Origin: a virus
Strand: one strand, 5' to 3'
Virus record (IMG/VR): IMGVR_UViG_3300009146_000025
Span: 1 to 37,130 of that record
DNA length: 37,130 nucleotides
Shown here one piece after another: positions 5,557-36,813 of this stretch. The notes beneath the pieces were generated by a model. It was given only the letters and a program-made list of their open reading frames with translations. It ran no database searches and was not told where the DNA came from. Both the position numbers and the translations under genes were made by a program. Numbering within the stretch: position 1 is the stretch's first letter; the number at the start of each line of letters is the position of its first letter.

Positions 5557-5601
5557 GGTGTGGCTCCTTGGTTGGCGGGTCTGTGTTGCTCTGTGTCTAC
5601 G

Positions 5602-10090: not shown

Positions 10091-10119
10091 ACTATACATG
10101 CACGTCCGGGGTGGGACAA
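10091..10119 (-). promoter_or_regulatory. Promoter of the zinc-ribbon unit
   Basis: TATAGT (10091-10096) and TTGTCC (10114-10119), spacer 17, with a CRP-type box upstream. Confidence 0.8.
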
Positions 10120-10139: not shown

Positions 10140-10155
10140 TGTGACCTGCCTCACG
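10140..10155. promoter_or_regulatory. CRP-type box 4
   Basis: TGTGACCTGCCTCACG, centre 51.5 bp from the -10 edge at 10096. As in box 3, the TCA of the right half is the reverse-strand stop codon of the preceding gene, here the large terminase. Confidence 0.6.
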
Positions 10156-11782
10156 GGCGTCGCCGCTGCTGCTGTCGTGGTGCCGTCGGCATCCCCCGCT
10201 GCCCGCCGATCCGTCTCGGCTGCTGGGCCGGGTTCGACACCTTCCCCGGGCGAGCCCGCAGCGCCAGGTAGGTGACGCCGTGCACGAGCGCGTCCAGCCG
10301 GTTCGGGGACTCGCCCTCCCCGGGCACCCAGGCGGTCTGCTCGCCCTCCACCCCGGGCAGCACACCCACATGGTGCGCCCGGTGCTGCTGGTACAGCGCC
10401 TGCACCGGCTCGGCGCGGAGCCGCTTCCCGACCTTGGTGGGCACCTTGAAGATCGGGATGGAGACGCCCAGCGCGTCCATGCGGGTCGACAGCACGTCCG
10501 CCACCATGTCCCCGCCGTAGGTGTGCTCGGCGGCGATGCCCTCCGCGCCGTAGTCGAAGAACGCGCCGATCACCACCATCGCCCAGGTGCCCGGCGGTCC
10601 CGCGAGGGACAGGTCCGCGAGCGGGTAGACGTGGTTCCCGATGGAGCCGACGACGACGATGCCGCACTCGGTGCGACCACCCGGCGGGTCGACGGCGACG
10701 ATGACCCGCTGCATCAACGTGAGGCCCTCGGGGGCGACGGGGACGAGCATGGGCAGCCCGTCGTCGGTGGCCATGCCGCGCGGGCGCGGGTTGGGGGTCC
10801 ACCCGTACTCCCCGAGGGACACCCGGTCGTTCTCGATGCCGGGGCGCTCGTCGGGGTTGGGGAGGCCGTCGATGAGCAGCGGGCGGTCGTGGACCCACAG
10901 CGCGCCCTCCACGTCGCCCAGCACCTCGCCGTCCAACTCCTGACGGCCCAGCGTGGTGCCCCCGTACTTGTCCTCCCAGGTGCGCCGCGAGTCGTCGTCC
11001 AGCCGGTGCGCGTCCCTGGTGCGGCCCCGGGTCTGCACGGTCCCGGCGTCGCCCATCAGGTCGATGATCGCCTTCCGGTTCTTGGGGGTCGTGGACCCGA
11101 CGTAGTGCGGGTTGGTGCCGATGCGGAGCCCGAAGGTGGTGTGGTGCAGCACCTCGTCCAGACGTCGCATGGCAGCCGCTTCCTCCAACCACACCAGGCA
11201 CGTGTTGCCCGCCGCGCGGAGCCGGTCGATGTCCTGGGGTCCGTGGGCTCCGAGCAGTCGAGCACGCGACCCGCCCGGCCAGCGCGCCACCGTGCCCTCG
11301 CGGGTCGTGGTGAGGGTGATGGACGGGTTGATGGTCTGGAGCCCGGACACCCCCGTGACGCACGCCTCCACGGCGTCCCCCTGGGTGGGGGCGACGATGA
11401 CGATGCGGTGCCCGCCCGGGAGCCGCGTGTCGCAGGCGGGGCCCTCGGCGTGGGTGTCGACGTAGTGGGCTGCGCCCTCGGTCTTGCCGGTGCCCCGGCC
11501 TCCCAGTTCCAGCCACATGCCCTGGGTGGGGATGGGGGCGACGGGGAGGTCCAGGCAGCGCTCGTCGCACACGCCCGGGGCGCGCTCACTCATCCAGTGC
11601 GGCGGGTGGCGGTGGGGATGCTGCCACGGGTACGGCTCCCACCGGGACGCCTTGATGCGGCGGGCCTCGGCGGTGAGGGTGGAGGCGAGCAGCAGCGCGT
11701 CCTCATCGTTCACGGCGAGCAGTGTCGCCTCCTCGGCGGCGGCGAGCAGCGCCAGCGCCTCAGCCTTGGCCAGGGAGCCCAT
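10151..11782 (-). CDS. terL: Terminase large subunit
   Basis: 543 residues. The ATPase half has a Walker A loop GGRGTGKTEG (about residues 93-102) and a Walker B strand CLVWLEEAAA; a coupling-type segment GSTTPKNR follows. The nuclease half has the first acidic strand VIVAVDPPGG and later RLDALVHGVTYL. It would cut concatemeric DNA and pump it into the prohead through the portal. I chose ATG at 11782 because it follows GAGGTGG at good distance; it overlaps the upstream terS-like gene by 23 bases. Upstream in-frame codons are shadows of that gene. Unusual position: last gene of the long unit carrying the DNA modification genes. Confidence 0.92.
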   Translation of the reverse strand: MGSLAKAEALALLAAAEEATLLAVNDEDALLLASTLTAEARRIKASRWEPYPWQHPHRHPPHWMSERAPGVCDERCLDLPVAPIPTQGMWLELGGRGTGKTEGAAHYVDTHAEGPACDTRLPGGHRIVIVAPTQGDAVEACVTGVSGLQTINPSITLTTTREGTVARWPGGSRARLLGAHGPQDIDRLRAAGNTCLVWLEEAAAMRRLDEVLHHTTFGLRIGTNPHYVGSTTPKNRKAIIDLMGDAGTVQTRGRTRDAHRLDDDSRRTWEDKYGGTTLGRQELDGEVLGDVEGALWVHDRPLLIDGLPNPDERPGIENDRVSLGEYGWTPNPRPRGMATDDGLPMLVPVAPEGLTLMQRVIVAVDPPGGRTECGIVVVGSIGNHVYPLADLSLAGPPGTWAMVVIGAFFDYGAEGIAAEHTYGGDMVADVLSTRMDALGVSIPIFKVPTKVGKRLRAEPVQALYQQHRAHHVGVLPGVEGEQTAWVPGEGESPNRLDALVHGVTYLALRARPGKVSNPAQQPRRIGGQRGMPTAPRQQQRRRP

Positions 11783-12293
11783 CGTCAACCACCTCACCGA
11801 GCACGACGTGGCGCAGGTCCGCGAGGGCGTCGTGGAGCGCGGCCTGGGCACCCGAGGTGATGGACACCTGCTGGGGTGCGTCGAGTCCGTTCATGCGTGC
11901 CCGGCGTGCGGAGAGGCGGACGAGGGTGTCGACGGCTTGCAGGTCGCCGGACACCACCTTCTCCCAGATGGCGGCTTGGGCGCGGTCGAGGCGCGCGTTC
12001 TCCGTCTGCCGCAGTTCCGCGACGCTGGACTCCTCCCAGCGGTCGAGTGCCCGCAGCACCGCCTGCCGGGCGGCGGACTTGTTGGCGTACCCGGCGAGCA
12101 CCGCCACCTGTTCGTAGGGGAGCCCGGACAGTTTCAGCGCCACCGCGCGAGCCCGGTTGGCGGCAGCCACCGCCTCGTCGTGGCCGGTGTCGCCTCGGTA
12201 CGCGGAGGCGGGCTGCAAGGCGGCGAGCGCAGCCTCGGAGACGGCGGCCACGGTCTGGTCGCCTACGGGCACTCCACGGTCTCCGACGGGCAC
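11760..12293 (-). CDS. Putative terminase small subunit
   Basis: 177 residues. The central part reads as a helix-turn-helix (LSGLPYEQVAVLAGYANKSA then ARQAVLRALDRWEES), followed by a helical oligomerisation-like region (WEKVVSGDLQAVDTLVRLSA). Directly upstream of, and overlapping, the large terminase, which is the usual place for the DNA-recognition subunit. GTG start at 12293 with GAGGTG five bases ahead. Assignment rests on position and HTH-like sequence. Confidence 0.72.
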   Translation of the reverse strand: MPVGDRGVPVGDQTVAAVSEAALAALQPASAYRGDTGHDEAVAAANRARAVALKLSGLPYEQVAVLAGYANKSAARQAVLRALDRWEESSVAELRQTENARLDRAQAAIWEKVVSGDLQAVDTLVRLSARRARMNGLDAPQQVSITSGAQAALHDALADLRHVVLGEVVDDGLPGQG

Positions 12294-12297
12294 GGGG

Positions 12298-12879
12298 TCA
12301 CCTCGTGAGCGCGAGGAACTCGGCGCGGACGGTCGGGTCGTCCTTGAACTGGCCGCGCAGCACGCTGGTCACCATCGCCGCCCCCTGGGCCTTGATGCCG
12401 CGCAGGCTCATGCAGGAGTGGGTGGCGCGGATGATGCACGCCGCGCCGTCGGGAGAGAGGTGCTGGTCGAGTGCGTCCACGACCTGGGTGGTGAGGCGCT
12501 CCTGCACCTGGGGCCGCATCGCGTAGTGGGTGAGCAGGCGGGGGATCTTCGACAGCCCGACGACCCCCTTGGCGGACGGCAGGTAGGCGACCCACGCGTC
12601 ACCCGTGAAGGGCAGCAAGTGGTGTTCGCAGAGGGACGTGAAGGCGATGGGGCCGACGGCGATCATCTCGTCGGTGGGGTAGCCGACGTCGGAGAACACC
12701 CTGCCGAGCAGCGCGGCGGGGTCGCCGGGGGGTGGGGTGGTGAACTCGGCGAACGCCTTGACTACCCGGGCGGGCGTGTCGAGCAGCCCCTCCCGGTCGG
12801 GGTCCTCGCCCATGAGGCGCAGCAGCGCGCGGACGCCCTCGACGGCGATCTCCTCGCGGGTCATCGCAACCAGGTCCAT
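12298..12879 (-). CDS. folE: GTP cyclohydrolase I
   Basis: 193 residues, full length for the family. Converts GTP to 7,8-dihydroneopterin triphosphate, the first step to preQ0. Zinc and active-site motifs are intact: LCEHHLLPF (Cys and His), VVGLSKIPRL, QVQERLT and HSCMSLRGI with the second zinc Cys. Start ATG overlaps the queE stop by one base (TGATG). Next to queE, queD and queC, so it serves 7-deazaguanine synthesis rather than folate. Confidence 0.93.
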   Translation of the reverse strand: MDLVAMTREEIAVEGVRALLRLMGEDPDREGLLDTPARVVKAFAEFTTPPPGDPAALLGRVFSDVGYPTDEMIAVGPIAFTSLCEHHLLPFTGDAWVAYLPSAKGVVGLSKIPRLLTHYAMRPQVQERLTTQVVDALDQHLSPDGAACIIRATHSCMSLRGIKAQGAAMVTSVLRGQFKDDPTVRAEFLALTR

Positions 12880-13613
12880 CAGTGGCCCCTCTCGTCGGCC
12901 CACAGCAGCACATGGAGCCGGGTGGTGGTGTGGAAGCCCGCGTCCATGATGCTCTCCGCGAGGTCGCGGTGCCGGGTCGTGATCGCGTCGGTGGTGACGC
13001 CCTCGGGCATCACCCAGCACGCGTCCCGGGGGAGCCCGCACTCCTCCACGAGCCGTACCGCTGTCGCCACGTCAGCCGCCGTCTGCGCCACGAACTTGAA
13101 CGATGCGTCTCCCTGCACCGCCAGGTCTCCCCAACGTCTCAGAGCGCGCGGTTTGATGCGCTTCTTGTACGGGTCGTCGGTGGCGACCTTGGGGGACACG
13201 ATGGAGTGGGCGACCCGGTCCGTCCACCACAGCGGCGGGGCGATGGTGCCGTTGGTCTCCACGTGCCACACCCACTCGTCGGACAGCAGCGGCAGCAGCC
13301 GTTGGTGGTGGAGCAGCGGCTCCCCGCCCGACAGCACCACGAGGCGGGTGTCGTGCTCGCGGAGCGCGCGGTGGATGACCTCGACCTCGGTGACGGGGTT
13401 CTCGGCGGCGACGTCGTAGCGAGAGTGGTCCCAGGTGTAGGGGGTGTCGCACCAGGAGCAGGACAGGTTGCACATGCCGAGCCGGACGAAGGAGCAGCGG
13501 CGTCCAGCGAACGGCCCCTCCCCCTGCCACGTGGGACCGAACACCTCCGACAGCGGCAGCGTGGAGGTGCGCCCGGCGCGGGCGAGAGCGTAGGCGGTCA
13601 TGCCGGGGATCAT
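12879..13613 (-). CDS. queE: 7-carboxy-7-deazaguanine synthase (radical SAM)
   Basis: 244 residues. Radical SAM enzyme that ring-contracts 6-carboxytetrahydropterin to 7-carboxy-7-deazaguanine. Shows the substrate loop FGPTWQGEGPFAGRRCSFVR, the cluster motif CNLSCSWC (CX3CX2C), DTPYTWD and the SAM-binding VVLSGGEPLLH. ATG at 13613 overlaps the queD stop as ATGA; a second ATG at 13601 is possible. Coupled to folE downstream. Confidence 0.93.
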   Translation of the reverse strand: MIPGMTAYALARAGRTSTLPLSEVFGPTWQGEGPFAGRRCSFVRLGMCNLSCSWCDTPYTWDHSRYDVAAENPVTEVEVIHRALREHDTRLVVLSGGEPLLHHQRLLPLLSDEWVWHVETNGTIAPPLWWTDRVAHSIVSPKVATDDPYKKRIKPRALRRWGDLAVQGDASFKFVAQTAADVATAVRLVEECGLPRDACWVMPEGVTTDAITTRHRDLAESIMDAGFHTTTRLHVLLWADERGH

Positions 13614-13999
13614 TCCCGCCACCACCACGCCCAGGTCTTGGGTGTCTCCGACACGCCGACGGCGATGGCTGCGCCCACAGGCACCATCAGCAGCCCCCGC
13701 ACCTGCGCGGCGAGAGCAGCAGCGAGGTGCTCGGCGGTGGGGTTGGGGAGCGCCGGGAGGGCGTCGTTGAGGTGGCGGTGGTCGAGGTGCTCGTCCACCC
13801 AACGCCCGAACGGGGCCAGGTCGCCGTAGTCGAGCACGAACCCTTGGGCGTTGAGGTAGGAGTTGGCGAGCCGCACCCGGACCACGTAGTTGTGGCCGTG
13901 CATGCGTGCACACGGGTGGCCCTCGCGGAGCCCGGTGAGGCAGTGGGACGCGGAGAAGGCGAAGTCCTTCTCGATGGTCCAGCAGTCGTCGCCCCTCAC
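13610..13999 (-). CDS. queD: 6-carboxytetrahydropterin synthase
   Basis: 129 residues, typical length. Converts dihydroneopterin triphosphate to 6-carboxytetrahydropterin. Zinc ligands are in FSASHCL and MHGHNY, the catalytic Cys in GHPCARMHG, the Asp-His pair in LDHRHLND and the substrate Glu in SETPKTWAW. GTG start at 13999 overlaps the upstream stop as GTGA. Confidence 0.92.
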   Translation of the reverse strand: MRGDDCWTIEKDFAFSASHCLTGLREGHPCARMHGHNYVVRVRLANSYLNAQGFVLDYGDLAPFGRWVDEHLDHRHLNDALPALPNPTAEHLAAALAAQVRGLLMVPVGAAIAVGVSETPKTWAWWWRE

Positions 14000-14649
14000 G
14001 CGGCGCTCCTCAGGTTGACCCGGGGGGCCGTGTCGGGGTGGCGGGCGTACTCGCGGCAGTAGGAGGCGAGCACGCGTGCCCGGTGCCGCCGCAGCCCGAA
14101 GTGGTCGGCCCAGTCGGTGAGCCGGTCGAGGCGTCGGGCGACGTCGAGCGCGGTCTCCACGTCGGCGTCGGTGATGGTGCACAGGGCCCCGGTGCCGCCG
14201 TCGGTCCTGTTCATCGCCCAGCCGCGCCCGAACAACTGCTCGGCGACACGCCACCCCGTGGGTGCGTGGATGAAGCGGATCAACTCGAAGTCGCAGGAGA
14301 AGGGCTGCCGTCCGTGGATGCCGCAGCGCCCGTCCTCGGGTTGCAGGTTGTGGCAGCGGGGGCCGTGGTTGTCGGGCTGCTCGTCGGACCACACCTCCAC
14401 CTGGCGTCCGTCGAAGGTGACGTCGCGGCGGGTGAGCGGGTAGGGGTGGGGCTCGGTGGGGAGGTAGTCGAGGGTGAAGGTGGGGCAGCAGCCGCCGCAG
14501 CCCGACGGGCAGGTGAAGCCGCGCAGCAGAGCGGGACCGAAGGTGATGGGCTCGGGTTGGACGACGTGCTCGCCCCACGTGAACGGGTGGGTGGTGATCG
14601 CGGCGAAGTAGCCGAGGACGATCTTGTCGAGGGAGTCACGCTTGGGCAC
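13996..14649 (-). CDS. YkgJ-like Cys-rich metal protein inside the deazaguanine operon
   Basis: 217 residues. The Cys pattern CPSGCGGCCPTF (about residues 47-58), then PRCHN, RCGIHGRQPFSCDFE and a later LCTI is that of the YkgJ/UPF0153-type putative zinc- or iron-binding family. The C-terminal third is helical (ADVETALDVARRLDRLTDW). It sits between queC and queD in the same coupled run (GTGA overlap with queD, 14-base overlap with queC), so it probably takes part in, or supports, 7-deazaguanine chemistry, for example by metal or cluster supply to QueE or by an extra base modification. This role is inference. Start GTG at 14649 is the best available; ribosome site is weak. Confidence 0.75.
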   Translation of the reverse strand: MPKRDSLDKIVLGYFAAITTHPFTWGEHVVQPEPITFGPALLRGFTCPSGCGGCCPTFTLDYLPTEPHPYPLTRRDVTFDGRQVEVWSDEQPDNHGPRCHNLQPEDGRCGIHGRQPFSCDFELIRFIHAPTGWRVAEQLFGRGWAMNRTDGGTGALCTITDADVETALDVARRLDRLTDWADHFGLRRHRARVLASYCREYARHPDTAPRVNLRSAA

Positions 14650-15307
14650 GCGTCGCCGCCATCCAGAAGTCGGGGTCGGCGTAGACCGTGGGGTCGGGGA
14701 CACCTGCGACGTGGAACGCTTCCGCGCGCTCCACGCACGTGCCGCAGCGTCCGCAGTGCTCCTCCCCGCCTTCGTAGCAGGACCAGGTGAGGTGCAGCGG
14801 GGCGTCCCACGACTCGCCGTAGCCCACCACGTCGGCCTTGGTGTCGTGCACGAACGGGGTCGCCACGTGCACGTCGTAGGCGTCGGCGGCGGCGTCGACG
14901 TGCGCCCAGAAGCCGGGGCGGCAGTCTGGGTAGATGGGGTGGTCGCCCGCGTGGACCCCGAGGACCAGCGTGTCCCCCGGGCGGGTGCCCGCGAGCGCGG
15001 CGGCAGCGAACAGGAGGTTGCGGCCCTGGACGACGGTGGCGGTCATGGAGTCCTCGGCGTAGTGGCCGTGCGGCACCTCCTGCTCACCGAGCAGCGCGGA
15101 CCCGGCGAGCAGCCCCCGCAAGTTGATGGTGTGGTGGGGGACGCCCATCCGCCGCGCCACCTTGCGTGCGGCGTCGACCTCACGCAGGTGCCGCTGCCCG
15201 TAGTCGAAGGACACGGCGCGCGGGGAGCCCGAGTAGCCGGGGCCCAGCGCCCAGGCGAGGGCGACGGTCGAGTCGATGCCGCCGGAGAGGATGACGTGGG
15301 TGGTCAC
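14636..15307 (-). CDS. queC: 7-cyano-7-deazaguanine (preQ0) synthase
   Basis: 223 residues, full length. ATP-dependent conversion of 7-carboxy-7-deazaguanine to preQ0. PP-loop LSGGIDST near the N-terminus, FDYGQRH, a GRNLLFAAAAL segment and the zinc site SCYEGGEEHCGRCGTCVER. GTG start overlaps the QueF-like stop (GTGA). Confidence 0.93.
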   Translation of the reverse strand: MTTHVILSGGIDSTVALAWALGPGYSGSPRAVSFDYGQRHLREVDAARKVARRMGVPHHTINLRGLLAGSALLGEQEVPHGHYAEDSMTATVVQGRNLLFAAAALAGTRPGDTLVLGVHAGDHPIYPDCRPGFWAHVDAAADAYDVHVATPFVHDTKADVVGYGESWDAPLHLTWSCYEGGEEHCGRCGTCVERAEAFHVAGVPDPTVYADPDFWMAATRAQA

Positions 15308-15690
15308 CAGCCTGCCCCTTCCGCGCTGGCAGTGAGTTCCAGCCCGCCCCGCACCTGCTGGGTGAGCACCACCTCCACGTCGGTGCCGAGCCGGTTGGTG
15401 AGGTCGCGGGCGATGGTCGCGGCGAGGTCCTCGCACGACAGCGCCAGGTCCCGGTAGCGCCACAGGTAGTGCTTGACCCCCTTGGACTCCAACGTGTAGC
15501 CGACCTGCGACGCGTCCCAGGTGATGGTGGCGTGGTACGTGTCGGGCTGGTGGGTGACGGGGCACTGGCAGAGCAGTTCCTCGGTGACGTACTGCACGCC
15601 GCCCACGTTGGGCTTCACGGTCCAGCGTTCGATCTGGTCGGCGCGGATGGGGCCGTGGGCGACCTTGCCCAGCAGCGTGTCGGTGGTCAT
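15304..15690 (-). CDS. QueF-like protein (preQ0 reductase family)
   Basis: 128 residues, short unimodal QueF fold. The active-site Cys region is LLCQCPVTHQPDTYHATI and the QueF motif ESKGVKHYLW is present. Where QueF usually has His-Glu (FHED) this protein reads LSCED, so the Glu is kept but the His is replaced by Cys. Bacterial QueF reduces preQ0 to preQ1 with NADPH; archaeal QueF-like proteins add ammonia to make archaeosine. Keeping the ESK motif favours reductase activity, the changed His leaves it open. ATG overlaps the dpdA stop (ATGA). Confidence 0.8.
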   Translation of the reverse strand: MTTDTLLGKVAHGPIRADQIERWTVKPNVGGVQYVTEELLCQCPVTHQPDTYHATITWDASQVGYTLESKGVKHYLWRYRDLALSCEDLAATIARDLTNRLGTDVEVVLTQQVRGGLELTASAEGAGW

Positions 15691-17027
15691 CGGTGCTCTC
15701 CTGTCAGGTCGGGGATCATCTCGTCCCAGTTGTCGTCCTCCACGGTGTGCTCGGTGAGCGGCACCCCGTAGTCGTCGTGGACGGCGGTGGCGATCTCGGT
15801 GAGGGACAGCACCATGCTCCCGAAGTACACCGACCACTGCGGCGACCCGAGCACGTCCACGAGGGTCGTCATCGACCCGTCCCGGCGGCACACCTGCCCG
15901 AACTGCGCCACCCGGAGGATGTGGTTGTTGTCGAGCGCCACACAGTCGTCCCCGAGGATGTTGAGGTAGGCGCGCTGCTTCGCCCACGACCCGCCGAGCA
16001 GGTGCACGGGGCGTCCCTTGAACGCCTCCACGGGCAGTTGGGTGCCGCCGTACGACGTCTCCACGGAGTACCCGAGCACCACCCGCGCGTCGCCCACGGT
16101 GTCGGGGATGCGGTCGAGGCAGTCGAACTTCGGGATGAGGATGACGTCCTCGACGTGCTCGGCGAGGTCGGCGGCTTGGTCGAGTGTCTGCTCCACGGTC
16201 AGGTAGTCGAGTCCTTCCTCGGCTGCCTGCTGCTTCGTGAACAGGTCGCGGGTGGTGCACGACTGTGGCTTGCACTCCGCGACGGCGGCGAGGTGGGCGG
16301 CGTGGTCGTAGTCGCGGTACGGGTTGTCCATGAAGGCGACGGGGGTGTGGCGGGGGTAGCGCTCGCGGTAGCGGCGGATGGTGTTGATGCCCGTCGAGAT
16401 GACGCCGGGCACCCAGCCGAGCCGGTCCCCGACCATCGCCTCCACCATCGACGGCCCGGAGTTGAGGGACAGGATGAGCCGCAGCGGGAGGGTGCGGTGG
16501 CGGGCGGCGCGCTGCTGTCCCGCCTCCACTTCGGCCTGCCTCGTGAGTCCGTCGAGGGTGAGGGTGGAGAGGAAGGCGAGGTGGTCGAGGTCGTCGGGGG
16601 TGTAGCCGGTGCCGAGGAGGCCCGCGTCGTGGGTGGCGATGTCGCGGAGCACGTCGAGGAGGAGGGCGTCGTCGTACTGGCCGATGTCGGCGGTGCGGTT
16701 GTCGGTGAGGAGGATGCGGGTGGCTTCGTCGTCGTCCACGTCGAGCCACAGCACCGGGAGCAGGGTCGCGCCCAGTTCTAGTGCCGCCTGGTACGTGTGG
16801 TTGCCAGCGAGCACGTGCCCGGTGGAGCGCTGCACGTACAGCGGTCGGTAGAGGCCGTTGTGGCGGATGGAGTCTCCGATGGCGTCGGTGTCGCCGTTGC
16901 GGGGGTTGCGGGGGTGGGGGGTGAGGCGGGTGGGGTCGGTGAGGAGGTCGCGGAGGGCGGGGTGTGCTCGGACGTCGCCGCCGAGGTGGATGAGTTCCTC
17001 GCGGGGCACGGTGTCGAGGGTGGTCAT
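15687..17027 (-). CDS. dpdA: ParB-like domain fused to DpdA-type DNA deazaguanine transglycosylase
   Basis: 446 residues. Residues about 30-150 are a ParB/Srx-type domain (HPRNPRNGDTDAIGDSIRHN, VLAGNHTYQAALELGA, ILLTDNRTADIGQYDD). Residues about 180-430 read as a TGT/DpdA barrel: LRLILSLNSGPS, PVAFMDNPYRDYDHAA, VILIPKFDC, VVLGYSVETSYGG, RPVHLLGGSWAKQ and DCVALDNNHILRVAQFG. DpdA exchanges guanine in DNA for a 7-deazaguanine made by the downstream genes, protecting phage DNA from restriction. The ParB part may position the enzyme or hydrolyse nucleotide. ATGA overlaps with the ribbon-helix-helix gene before and QueF-like gene after. Confidence 0.82.
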   Translation of the reverse strand: MTTLDTVPREELIHLGGDVRAHPALRDLLTDPTRLTPHPRNPRNGDTDAIGDSIRHNGLYRPLYVQRSTGHVLAGNHTYQAALELGATLLPVLWLDVDDDEATRILLTDNRTADIGQYDDALLLDVLRDIATHDAGLLGTGYTPDDLDHLAFLSTLTLDGLTRQAEVEAGQQRAARHRTLPLRLILSLNSGPSMVEAMVGDRLGWVPGVISTGINTIRRYRERYPRHTPVAFMDNPYRDYDHAAHLAAVAECKPQSCTTRDLFTKQQAAEEGLDYLTVEQTLDQAADLAEHVEDVILIPKFDCLDRIPDTVGDARVVLGYSVETSYGGTQLPVEAFKGRPVHLLGGSWAKQRAYLNILGDDCVALDNNHILRVAQFGQVCRRDGSMTTLVDVLGSPQWSVYFGSMVLSLTEIATAVHDDYGVPLTEHTVEDDNWDEMIPDLTGEHR

Positions 17028-17431
17028 GGGTGGGTGCCGTTGAGGGTCTTGAACTCCACGGGGGCGCTCTCGTTCGCTAGGAGGATGCGGTGGATGGCTT
17101 GGCGGCAGTCGGTGAGGTTGTCGTAGCCGCCGGGGCTGGTGCCGAGGGGGGTCGCTGTCTCGACGGCGGTGAAGGTCCAGTGCCAGCCGTCGGGTTCCTC
17201 GTGGTAGTCGACGCGGTTGGTGAAGGGGCGTCCCCGGGCGGGGCGGATGGTGCGTTTCCCGGGGGCGGTCTGGGTGGAGGTGGTTTGGGTGCGTTGGAGT
17301 GCCCAGGTGAGGGCGCGGCTGACCCAGGCGTCTCTGGAGAGGTGGAGGGGGGCGCGGCGGGTGTCGATGGTGTCGCGGAGGTGGCGGGGGACGCGGACGT
17401 TCATCTGGACCCGGTCGTCGGGGTCGTTCAT
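17024..17431 (-). CDS. Ribbon-helix-helix DNA-binding protein
   Basis: 135 residues. Residues about 8-45 have the RHH pattern: strand VQMNVRVP, then RHLRDTIDTRRAP and SRDAWVSRALTWAL. The C-terminal part (VDYHEEPDGWHWTFTAVETA) is unassigned. It heads the DNA modification genes and overlaps dpdA by ATGA. A TGCTAGC direct repeat lies 23 bases before its start codon, a natural site for autoregulation; a second copy precedes the portal gene. Probably a transcription regulator. Confidence 0.72.
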   Translation of the reverse strand: MNDPDDRVQMNVRVPRHLRDTIDTRRAPLHLSRDAWVSRALTWALQRTQTTSTQTAPGKRTIRPARGRPFTNRVDYHEEPDGWHWTFTAVETATPLGTSPGGYDNLTDCRQAIHRILLANESAPVEFKTLNGTHP

Positions 17432-20612: not shown

Positions 20613-20618
20613 ACTATA
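20613..20618 (-). promoter_or_regulatory. -10 element at the head of the 10-kb unit
   Basis: GTGTATAGTCGTAGACACAG, identical in its core to the other promoters. The -35 is poor (TTAGGC with an 18-base spacer) and no CRP-type box is present at the expected position. It may be weaker or need another factor. Confidence 0.6.
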
Positions 20619-20638
20619 CACGAGTCCCGTGGTGCTGC

Positions 20639-20848
20639 CTAATCGGTCTGCGGCGGCGTGTCGTCGCCGTGCCAGTTGCTCTCCAAGTGGTCCGCCATCT
20701 CACGCAGCGAGGCGATGCACCGCTCCTTCGTGAGCGCCGCGTGAGACACGAGGTTCATCTGGCCGTTGTCCTGCAACGTGAGCACCAGGACCGCGTTGTC
20801 GAGGCGCTCGTGGATGAGCAGCATGTCGGACTCCAACGGCGCGGTCAC
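20639..20848 (-). CDS. Hypothetical protein (69 aa)
   Basis: 69 residues: beta-rich first half (MLLIHERLDNAVLVLTLQDN) then a helix (KERCIASLREMADHLESNW). GTG overlaps the upstream stop as GTGA. Last gene of an eight-gene unit. Function unknown. Confidence 0.66.
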   Translation of the reverse strand: MTAPLESDMLLIHERLDNAVLVLTLQDNGQMNLVSHAALTKERCIASLREMADHLESNWHGDDTPPQTD

Positions 20849-29137: not shown

Positions 29138-29143
29138 ACTATA
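29138..29143 (-). promoter_or_regulatory. -10 element of the 264-aa gene
   Basis: CGCGTGTATAGTCGACTGTCCGACC region; nearly identical to the region at 30619, and unlike the TTGTCC class it has no recognisable -35. Confidence 0.55.
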
Positions 29144-29169
29144 CACGCGGGCGAGAGGGCGCACGGGAG

Positions 29170-35246: not shown

Positions 35247-36044
35247 TCAGGTCTTGATGATGAACCCCAGCGCCAGGTAGGGGTTGGTGATGTTGACGGG
35301 GGTGGACGCGCCGACGCTGCCCGACTGTCCCGCGTGGGCCGGGAACCCCAGGGCGTGCGTGTGCACCGCGCTGATGCCGGAGGTGGAGACGGAGTGGTTG
35401 TGGAGGCCGTCGGTGGAGGTGGGGATGGTCTGCGCGATGACACCCGACCCCCGGTAGAACCCTTGGCTGCGGACGTTCTGCGTCCCGGCGGCGACGCCGT
35501 GGTTGTGCCCGATGGGCGCGATGGCGTCGGAGGTGTACCCGCTGTGGGCGTGGTCGCTGGACACGTACCCGGTGTTCAGCACTCCCCCGTGGCCGTGGTC
35601 GAAGGTGTGCGTGTGGGCGGGCATCTGGTTGGGGACGAGGGTGGAGGTGAACGACCCGCCGTCCGACCCGAGCGGGTAGAGGGCGTCCGCGCCCATCGGC
35701 AACTTGGCGACCATGTCGGGGACGTTGAAGGACGACCCGGCTCCCCCGTACGTGGTGCCGATGGCGGCGAACAGTTCCGGGTAGGCGGTCCGCGAGTACG
35801 CCGCGCCGTCACACAGCAGCCACCCGGCGGGGACAGCGGAGGGAGCCTTCGACGCGAGCCCAGCCGACGCCGCGCCGTGCATAGCGAGCACGCCCGGGGG
35901 CACAGACTGGTACTCGTCGCCGCCCAGCGCTCGCACCACGAACGGCGAGTTGGCGGTGCCCGCGCCGTCCACGTCCATGCCCTCCCCGCCCTGGATGACG
36001 CAGGCGCAGCGGGCACCCAGGCAGTCGTCGTCGCAGCCAGCCAT
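35247..36044 (-). CDS. Phage tail-collar domain protein, copy 1
   Basis: 265 residues. N-terminal Cys-rich tip (CDDDCLGARCACV), then a tail-collar domain: AVPAGWLLCDGAAYSRTAYP, LFAAIGTTYGGAGSSFNVPD and MVAKLPMGADA. The C-terminal half is built of Gly/His segments (HTHTFDHGHGGV, SDHAHSGYTSD, GHNHGVAAG, GLHNHSVSTSG, VHTHALGFPAH), the pattern that binds iron along trimeric fibre tips such as T4 gp12. Ends IIKT like its neighbour. Likely a receptor-binding or baseplate-tip protein. Confidence 0.86.
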   Translation of the reverse strand: MAGCDDDCLGARCACVIQGGEGMDVDGAGTANSPFVVRALGGDEYQSVPPGVLAMHGAASAGLASKAPSAVPAGWLLCDGAAYSRTAYPELFAAIGTTYGGAGSSFNVPDMVAKLPMGADALYPLGSDGGSFTSTLVPNQMPAHTHTFDHGHGGVLNTGYVSSDHAHSGYTSDAIAPIGHNHGVAAGTQNVRSQGFYRGSGVIAQTIPTSTDGLHNHSVSTSGISAVHTHALGFPAHAGQSGSVGASTPVNITNPYLALGFIIKT

Positions 36045-36054
36045 AGTCGCCTCC

Positions 36055-36813
36055 TCAGGTCTTGATGATGAACGCCACGGCGGTGTACGGGTTGAGGTGG
36101 CCGATGGGCTGGGACGTCCCCGGTCCCGCCCCGGACGGTCCCGCGTGAGCGGGCACGCTCACCGCGTGGGTGTGGTTGGCGTTGATGCCGTACGTGGTGA
36201 CGGAGTGGTTGTGCAGCCCGTCGGTGGAGGTGACGAGCGCGCCCGAGTAGGGCGACGAGTAGCCCGCCCCGCCACCCGCGCCGCCCGCCGACAACCCGAC
36301 CCCGTGGTTGTGGGCTCCGGCGTCGGAGGTGATGCCCCCGTGGGCGTGGTCGTTGGACTCGGAGCCCGTCCCCAGGGTGCCGCCGTGCCCGTGGTCGATG
36401 GTGTGCGTGTGCGGGGGCAGCATGTTCGGGGCGAGGGTGTGGGTGAGGGTGCCGCCGGTCTGCCCCAGCGGGTAGGTGCCCGCGAGCGCACCCAGCGGGA
36501 ACCGGCCCGCCAGGTCGGGGACCGCGAACGTCGTCGCCCCGTCCCCGGCCCCGTAGGTGTCGCCGATGATCCCGAACAGGGTGGCGTACGTCGTCCGGGA
36601 CACCGCCTGCCCGTTGGCGACTAGCCACCCCGACGGCACCGAGGAGCCCCCGTACATGACCACCGTGCCCGGTGGCAGCGTCGACCCGGGGGTGCCCTGC
36701 GCGGAGACGACTATGGGATTCTCGGACGTCCCGACCCCGGTGACGGTGACGTTCTGGCCCGCGACGACGACGCAGGTGCACTTGTCGCCTGAGCAGCCTG
36801 AGCACCTAGGCAT
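36055..36813 (-). CDS. Phage tail-collar domain protein, copy 2
   Basis: 252 residues, paralog of the next gene with the same plan: CSGCSGDKCTCVVVAGQNV start, SVPSGWLVANGQAVSRTTYA, LFGIIGDTYGAGDGATTFAV, PDLAGRFPLGA, then HTHTIDHGHGGTLG, NDHAHGGITSD, AHNHGVGLSAG, GLHNHSVTTYG and NHTHAVSVPAH. Tandem duplication with divergence suggests two tip proteins of different specificity. ATG with GAAGGAGACACGCC upstream. Confidence 0.86.
   Translation of the reverse strand: MPRCSGCSGDKCTCVVVAGQNVTVTGVGTSENPIVVSAQGTPGSTLPPGTVVMYGGSSVPSGWLVANGQAVSRTTYATLFGIIGDTYGAGDGATTFAVPDLAGRFPLGALAGTYPLGQTGGTLTHTLAPNMLPPHTHTIDHGHGGTLGTGSESNDHAHGGITSDAGAHNHGVGLSAGGAGGGAGYSSPYSGALVTSTDGLHNHSVTTYGINANHTHAVSVPAHAGPSGAGPGTSQPIGHLNPYTAVAFIIKT

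Follow-up and report, generated by a model that had tools for sequence, protein, structure and literature searches.

The window analysed here is the whole 37,130-nt stretch of the virus record IMGVR_UViG_3300009146_000025 (IMG/VR), and its minus strand carries at positions 12298-17027 seven overlapping genes, which encode, in order, a ParB-transglycosylase fusion, QueF, QueC, a YkgJ-like protein, QueD, QueE, and FolE. Very probably, the genes of this operon together produce a 7-deazaguanine base, and the fusion, a DNA-guanine transglycosylase, inserts it into the DNA of the phage itself, which would thereby be shielded from restriction. The chief advance lies in the C-terminal half of the fusion, which belongs to DUF6610: modelling suggests that this family is a previously unlabelled, very divergent DNA-guanine transglycosylase domain resembling tRNA-guanine transglycosylase (TGT). 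Gene content, the fold match, the order of motifs, and mutual exclusion with TGT were observed; catalysis, the final base, the role of ParB, and protection are what we infer. In the proposed pathway, FolE, QueD, QueE, and QueC would convert GTP to 7-cyano-7-deazaguanine (preQ0), which QueF would probably reduce to preQ1. The DUF6610 barrel would break the glycosidic bond of guanine and then insert the deazaguanine. The fused ParB-type domain, in place of the separate ParB/DpdB partner that adjoins other DpdA genes, would tether the enzyme to the double-stranded DNA of the phage and would probably bind a nucleotide in doing so. Further modification of the inserted or free preQ1, by methylation, would probably fall to the YkgJ-like protein, and the deazaguanine in the phage DNA would protect it against restriction.

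The fusion (446 aa; 15687-17027, minus strand) was characterized by family searches, which were made for the window proteins with Pfam, NCBIfam, and PHROG, by a structure model, and by fold matching. The sole Pfam match of its C-terminal half was PF20314 (DUF6610; E-value of 2.7e-34, 119 bits against a gathering cut-off of 27). This half also matched phrog_23010 and phrog_16059, both of unknown function, which are the same PHROGs as those of gp69 from halovirus HVTV-1 and of the HRTV-14 protein. The AlphaFold2 model of the fusion had a predicted local distance difference test score (pLDDT) of 86.9, with values mostly above 90 in the barrel region. Residues ~181-420 (15768-16487, minus strand) form a TGT-like (β/α)8 barrel, in which eight strands (183-188, 206-210, 232-234, 256-258, 294-297, 314-321, 341-344, and 362-366) are arranged in the (β/α)8 order. 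When the model was compared with the PDB by Foldseek, the best 50 of the 153 matches at E≤0.001 were ParB/Noc structures and TGTs only; TGT was the sole non-ParB family among them, with E-values of ~1e-5 and a probability of 1.00. Among viral models, the matches included an uncultured-phage protein annotated as ParB (full length, 41% identity), the queuine tRNA-ribosyltransferase of Mufasa8, which is a classical phage DpdA (E-value of 2e-5), and the haloviral DUF6610 protein of HCTV-1 (387 aa). The first-pass annotation had called the protein a ParB-DpdA fusion and had proposed a fold prediction of the C-terminal half as a check; the predicted structure bears this proposal out, and by sequence the half is DUF6610, not PF01702 or a DpdA PHROG.

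The barrel assignment agrees with residue conservation. The profile collection of DUF6610 comprised 58 viral and 7 cellular loci, and 43 proteins were aligned. The invariant or near-invariant residues are F232, D234, P254, D261, P299-K300, H342, L344-G345-G346, Q351, and D366; D234 is kept in 42 of 42 sequences and D366 in 43 of 43. The roles of the catalytic residues of TGT are established. In the E. coli enzyme the motifs run in the order DSGGFQ (89), FDECTP (142), QGS (187), GGLAVGE (213), YLMGVG (242), and DMFDCV (261), and the conserved Asp residues of DUF6610 follow this order, being matched by order and motif rather than by coordinate superposition. VHLLGGS and VALDNN of the fusion occupy the places of YLMGVG and MFDCV. 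The spacing between His342 and Asp366 is 24 residues, compared with 22 between the Tyr and the nucleophilic Asp in TGT. Because the motif order follows that of TGT, Asp366 is probably the nucleophile and Asp234 the acid/base.

Across viral loci, DUF6610 and the classical enzyme tend to exclude each other. Where a locus had three or all four of the core genes, DUF6610 alone was present in 14 cases, TGT alone in 22, both in 3, and neither in 2 (Fisher p = 1.9e-6). The p-value is indicative only, since related loci were counted, HVTV-1 entered the count twice (as L013 and L071), and the loci were partly fetched using these families. Entire records were also searched with phrog_887: the controls (Knocker, Funsized, and L086) were all matched, and no DpdA was detected in the window record, in HVTV-1, or in eleven relatives with DUF6610. 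Judged from this distribution, DUF6610 appears to stand in for the TGT-type DpdA in preQ0 operons. In addition, two loci, L096 and L111, have YkgJ, QueF, QueC, QueD, QueE, and FolE, and neither TGT nor DUF6610 by the profiles used; they may hide a further type of transglycosylase.

HVTV-1 is of particular relevance: its DNA carries ~30% dPreQ1, and no DpdA was found there by Hutinet et al. 2019 (PMC6884629). The gp69 of this virus is a DUF6610 protein and adjoins FolE. It is probably the missing DpdA enzyme of HVTV-1. Another candidate, gp83, considered for its length and its place beside QueF, was unrelated. In the abstract of Cui et al. of 2023, DpdA4 is said to be specific to archaeal viruses, and we presume that DUF6610, with HVTV-1 gp69, is probably this DpdA4 group; if so, the present data widen DpdA4 to bacterial phages. 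Our literature searches found no description of DpdA4, DUF6610, or a ParB-TGT fusion. It should be mentioned that gp56 of HRTV-14 (L012:7860-8774) and its orthologues among L066-L078 are stand-alone DUF6610 genes upstream of the DNA polymerase.

The N-terminal domain of the fusion (residues ~28-153; 16569-16946, minus strand) is of the ParB/Srx type, with matches to PHROG ParB (2.6e-37) and ParB_N (2.2e-4). By Foldseek it matched ParB structures in complex with CDP or CTPγS (E-value of 2e-6), and many of the ParB/Noc matches carry CDP or a CTP analogue. The canonical nucleotide motif GERRxR is replaced by AGNHTYQA. In the DUF6610 tree, ParB was detected in the same open reading frame (ORF) in 25 of the 61 rows, all within one group of 33 rows (support 91), and the haloviral and short forms are mostly outside this group. 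The window groups with three mycobacteriophages and L021 (support 98). The fusion is not unique to the window, since at least three named mycobacteriophages share it, as do dozens of viral contigs. Contigs of metagenome-assembled genomes from Peptococcaceae and Chloroflexota (L080, L079, and L081), which are probably proviral, likewise encode ParB-DUF6610 fusions, and a plasmid search using the ParB N-terminus gave no match.

An association of ParB with base-modifying enzymes is seen elsewhere. A ParB gene adjoins classical DpdA in Mufasa8, phi47:1, L086, and L093. For bacterial Dpd systems, a published account makes DpdB a ParB-like ATPase that powers the insertion of dPreQ0 (PMC12839542), and ParB-methyltransferase fusions of unknown function are on record (PMC12783734). 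Gene 70 of Pseudanabaena phage Pam4 (829 aa; L116:6053-8539), shortly upstream of the terminase, encodes a ParB module 54% identical to that of the window, fused to a DNA methylase with an inserted pyridoxal phosphate-dependent enzyme; this protein is possibly another base hypermodification enzyme. Given this pairing of a like ParB module with a DNA methylase in Pam4, the domain seems to be an interchangeable unit that recruits enzymes to DNA or serves as a clamp. The first-pass annotation had suggested that the ParB-type domain ties insertion to a DNA track, site, or nucleotide cycle, which it may do.

The remaining genes of the operon supply the base. The first-pass annotation had described seven coupled genes with FolE, QueD, QueE, and QueC intact, and this description holds: all seven are intact, at the coordinates given then, with starts overlapping the preceding stops. 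The overlaps are 4 nt between the fusion and QueF (ATGA), 4 nt between QueF and QueC, 14 nt between QueC and the YkgJ-like gene, 4 nt between the latter and QueD, 4 nt between QueD and QueE, and 1 nt between QueE and FolE. FolE (GTP cyclohydrolase I; 12298-12879, minus strand as all that follow) gave a Pfam match of 1.4e-61 and has a CEHH motif. The radical SAM 7-carboxy-7-deazaguanine synthase QueE (12879-13613) matched TIGR03365 (9.3e-25) and its PHROG (3e-52) and has CNLSCSWC. The 6-carboxytetrahydropterin synthase QueD (13610-13999) matched QueD/PTPS (2.7e-28) and has CARMHGH. The preQ0 synthase QueC (14636-15307) matched Pfam (1.1e-48) and TIGR00364 above its cut-off, and has SGGIDS and a C-x7-CxxCxxC zinc motif. 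The strong family matches and the catalytic and metal motifs agree for all four, which constitute the established route from GTP to preQ0 (PMC6884629), and by this gene content the window probably belongs to the phage 7-deazaguanine DNA modification pathway.

The QueF-like preQ0 reductase (128 aa; 15304-15690) matched TIGR03139 (QueF-II; 2.1e-12) and retains C43, D50, and ESKxxK, within the motifs CPVTHQPD and ESKGVKHY. C43, D50, and E68-K70-K73 of the ExKxxK NADPH motif are invariant in eight phage QueF proteins, that of HVTV-1 included. Because the catalytic Cys and Asp and ExKxxK are retained, the product is predicted to be preQ1 rather than preQ0. The YkgJ-like CxxCxxCC protein (13996-14649), a candidate DpdM, matched its family slightly under the cut-off (2.7e-4) and is 49-50% identical to Knocker gp4 and Pan1_55. 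An alignment of 28 relatives showed 24 invariant columns, including C46, C50, C53, C54, C98, C108, H111, C118, and C156 (the start residue being omitted from the numbering). Homologues occur in Cellulophaga phages phi38:2 and phi47:1, and the DNA of phi38:2 carries a 7-deazaguanine modification (PMC11515303). Of 35 YkgJ loci, 27 have QueF and 26 have a transglycosylase of either type. The model of the protein (pLDDT of 93.3) had no fold match in the PDB. Cui et al. (2023) reportedly named a dPreQ1 methyltransferase of new fold DpdM; from the Cellulophaga homology and that description, we take the YkgJ-like protein to be the likely DpdM. The final base is predicted to be dPreQ1 or its methylamino derivative.

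The closest known systems are in mycobacteriophages Knocker, Funsized, and Rinkes (genes 1-8; L014, L001, and L020). Their gene 1, annotated merely as a ParB-like nuclease, is a ParB-DUF6610 fusion 40-42% identical to that of the window over ~90%, and QueF, QueC, QueD, QueE, and FolE lie in one operon upstream of the terminase, with a YkgJ-like gene in Knocker but not in the operons of Funsized and Rinkes. Unlike the window operon, theirs include an adenylate kinase gene and, as a gene apart, a DpdA-type TGT, so that two transglycosylase-type proteins (gene 1 and DpdA, gene 3) share one operon (L014:1-3188, L001:1-2565, and L020:1-2560); the two may differ in insertion specificity or divide the work between them. 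The preQ1 locus of HVTV-1 (gp69-gp82) resembles the window in having FolE, QueE, QueD, QueC, QueF, and a DUF6610 protein and no classical DpdA, whereas it differs in its archaeal host, in that no ParB domain was detected on gp69, and in that no YkgJ-like gene was found nearby. Mycobacterium phage Rosebush and E. coli phage CAjan, in which dPreQ0 replaces ~30% of G, share FolE, QueD, QueE, and QueC together with a DpdA, but this is classical, QueF and an amidotransferase are both absent, and a fusion is not reported. Cellulophaga phi47:1 and phi38:2 (L016) have FolE, QueF, a YkgJ-like protein, transglycosylase, ParB, QueC, QueD, and QueE together, with ParB and classical DpdA in separate genes. 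Bacterial Dpd systems (DpdA and DpdB) also pair a transglycosylase with a ParB-like ATPase, but as separate proteins, in host self-marking restriction, with DpdC converting the base to dADG.

Several observations weigh against a transglycosylase role for the fusion. Its C-terminal half gave no sequence-profile match to PF01702, phrog_887, or phrog_7068 (the latter two being DpdA PHROGs), where PF01702 is a poor probe that misses phage DpdA proteins entirely, so that phrog_887 and home-made profiles were substituted, and phrog_7068, which matched nothing, controls included, adds little alone. Sequence searches of the PDB with this domain gave no significant match, and profile-profile comparison of DUF6610 with phage DpdA and E. 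coli TGT (hhalign) gave a probability of 0.2%, that is, no detectable homology. Because neither kind of comparison gave a significant match, the homology is argued from the fold. The Foldseek TM-scores were modest (0.32-0.43 over the two-domain chain), as expected because the query has two domains. The CxCxxC zinc motif of tRNA-type TGT is absent from the fusion; the DpdA sequence of phage Funsized is likewise without a visible CxCxxC. In haloviruses of the HRTV group such as HRTV-14, the stretch read shows DUF6610 but no preQ0 genes; the protein might act there as a lone transglycosylase on preQ0 supplied by the host. Finally, DUF6610 could be accessory in Knocker, Funsized, and Rinkes, which have a separate DpdA as well, and the window record is classed as linear and may be a fragment. 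These last two points would also fit the idea that the fusion is a DpdB-like accessory factor, the true DpdA being encoded by the host or by phage sequence outside the record. We regard this as unlikely: in 14 pathway loci, counting the window and the complete 102-kb HVTV-1 genome, DUF6610 is the sole candidate, and a TGT barrel fold with invariant acidic residues exceeds the needs of an accessory factor.

The final base might be preQ0 or of the amido or archaeosine type, if the QueF-like protein were an amidinotransferase (QueF-L) or inactive. The QueF match scores 46.9 bits where the curated cut-off asks for 86.9, the His usual ahead of the active-site Glu is Cys in the actinophage QueF proteins, and QueF and QueF-L are hard to separate by sequence (PMC6884629); nevertheless, the catalytic Cys, Asp, and ExKxxK are invariant, as in QueF of dPreQ1-carrying HVTV-1 (PMC6884629), and we give this possibility perhaps a minor share. 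A role in tRNA, with the genes boosting queuosine precursors for the host and no DNA modification, has been proposed for phages having pathway genes without DpdA (PMC6884629). It seems very improbable here and is rejected because the transglycosylase is ParB-fused; the ParB module on the DNA methylase of Pam4 also points to DNA. A more far-reaching form of the DNA-guanine transglycosylase reading can be offered tentatively: DUF6610 might be a large unrecognised class of such enzymes in bacterial and archaeal viruses, and its ParB-fused branch a self-loading clamp that uses a nucleotide cycle to travel on phage DNA ahead of packaging and gives a phage-DNA-only, possibly dense, methylated-preQ1 modification.

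With respect to transcription, a promoter-like element, TTGT-N19-TATAGT, extended as TATAGTCGTA, recurs on the minus strand. Seven exact TATAGTCGTA copies (at 5598, 7751, 9207, 10087, 20609, 24290, and 27737), against 0.08 expected, sit inside longer repeats of 35-69 nt, most with TTGT 19 nt upstream, and probably serve as promoters belonging to the phage itself; a weaker, eighth one occupies 29138-29166. The repeat closest upstream of the operon is at 20613-20641 and the following one, downstream of the terminase, is at 10091-10119. Because the interval from 20613 to 10119 showed neither a further copy nor a terminator-like site on the minus strand, the operon, a small gene, and the terminase are probably on one shared transcript. 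The common transcript with the terminase claimed at first is thus plausible from the repeat spacing, but the small gene (11760-12308, minus strand; phrog_645, "RNase E", 6e-23) intervenes between FolE and the terminase large subunit (TerL), with no promoter or terminator between. TerL (10151-11851, minus strand; likely start ~11782) gave a Pfam match of 1.7e-9 and is 62% identical to that of Pam4. Phage Hilltopfarm has an RNaseE-annotated gene at the position equivalent to that of the phrog_645 gene, and the operon is coupled to the terminase also in Knocker, Funsized, Rinkes, and Hilltopfarm. On the other side, a small protein (17024-17431, minus strand) overlaps the fusion start by 4 nt; it is ribbon-helix-helix-like by eye and had no match in Pfam or PHROG. 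Elsewhere in the window, two neighbouring minus-strand ORFs of similar length (35247-36044 and 36055-36813) lie over three repeat pairs (67, 102, and 157 nt; 75-79% identical; ~800 nt apart), and a gene duplication is likely.

These results propose a function for Pfam DUF6610, which is common to the fusion and to haloviruses including HVTV-1, and they nominate one gene, gp69, as the DpdA of the latter, where Hutinet et al. had seen none. The transglycosylase and its ParB partner in one polypeptide would be a natural single-protein system for ParB-driven DNA base exchange. The ParB module on the Pam4 DNA methylase near the terminase suggests that such a domain may be a general recruiting module, exchangeable among phage base-modifying enzymes.

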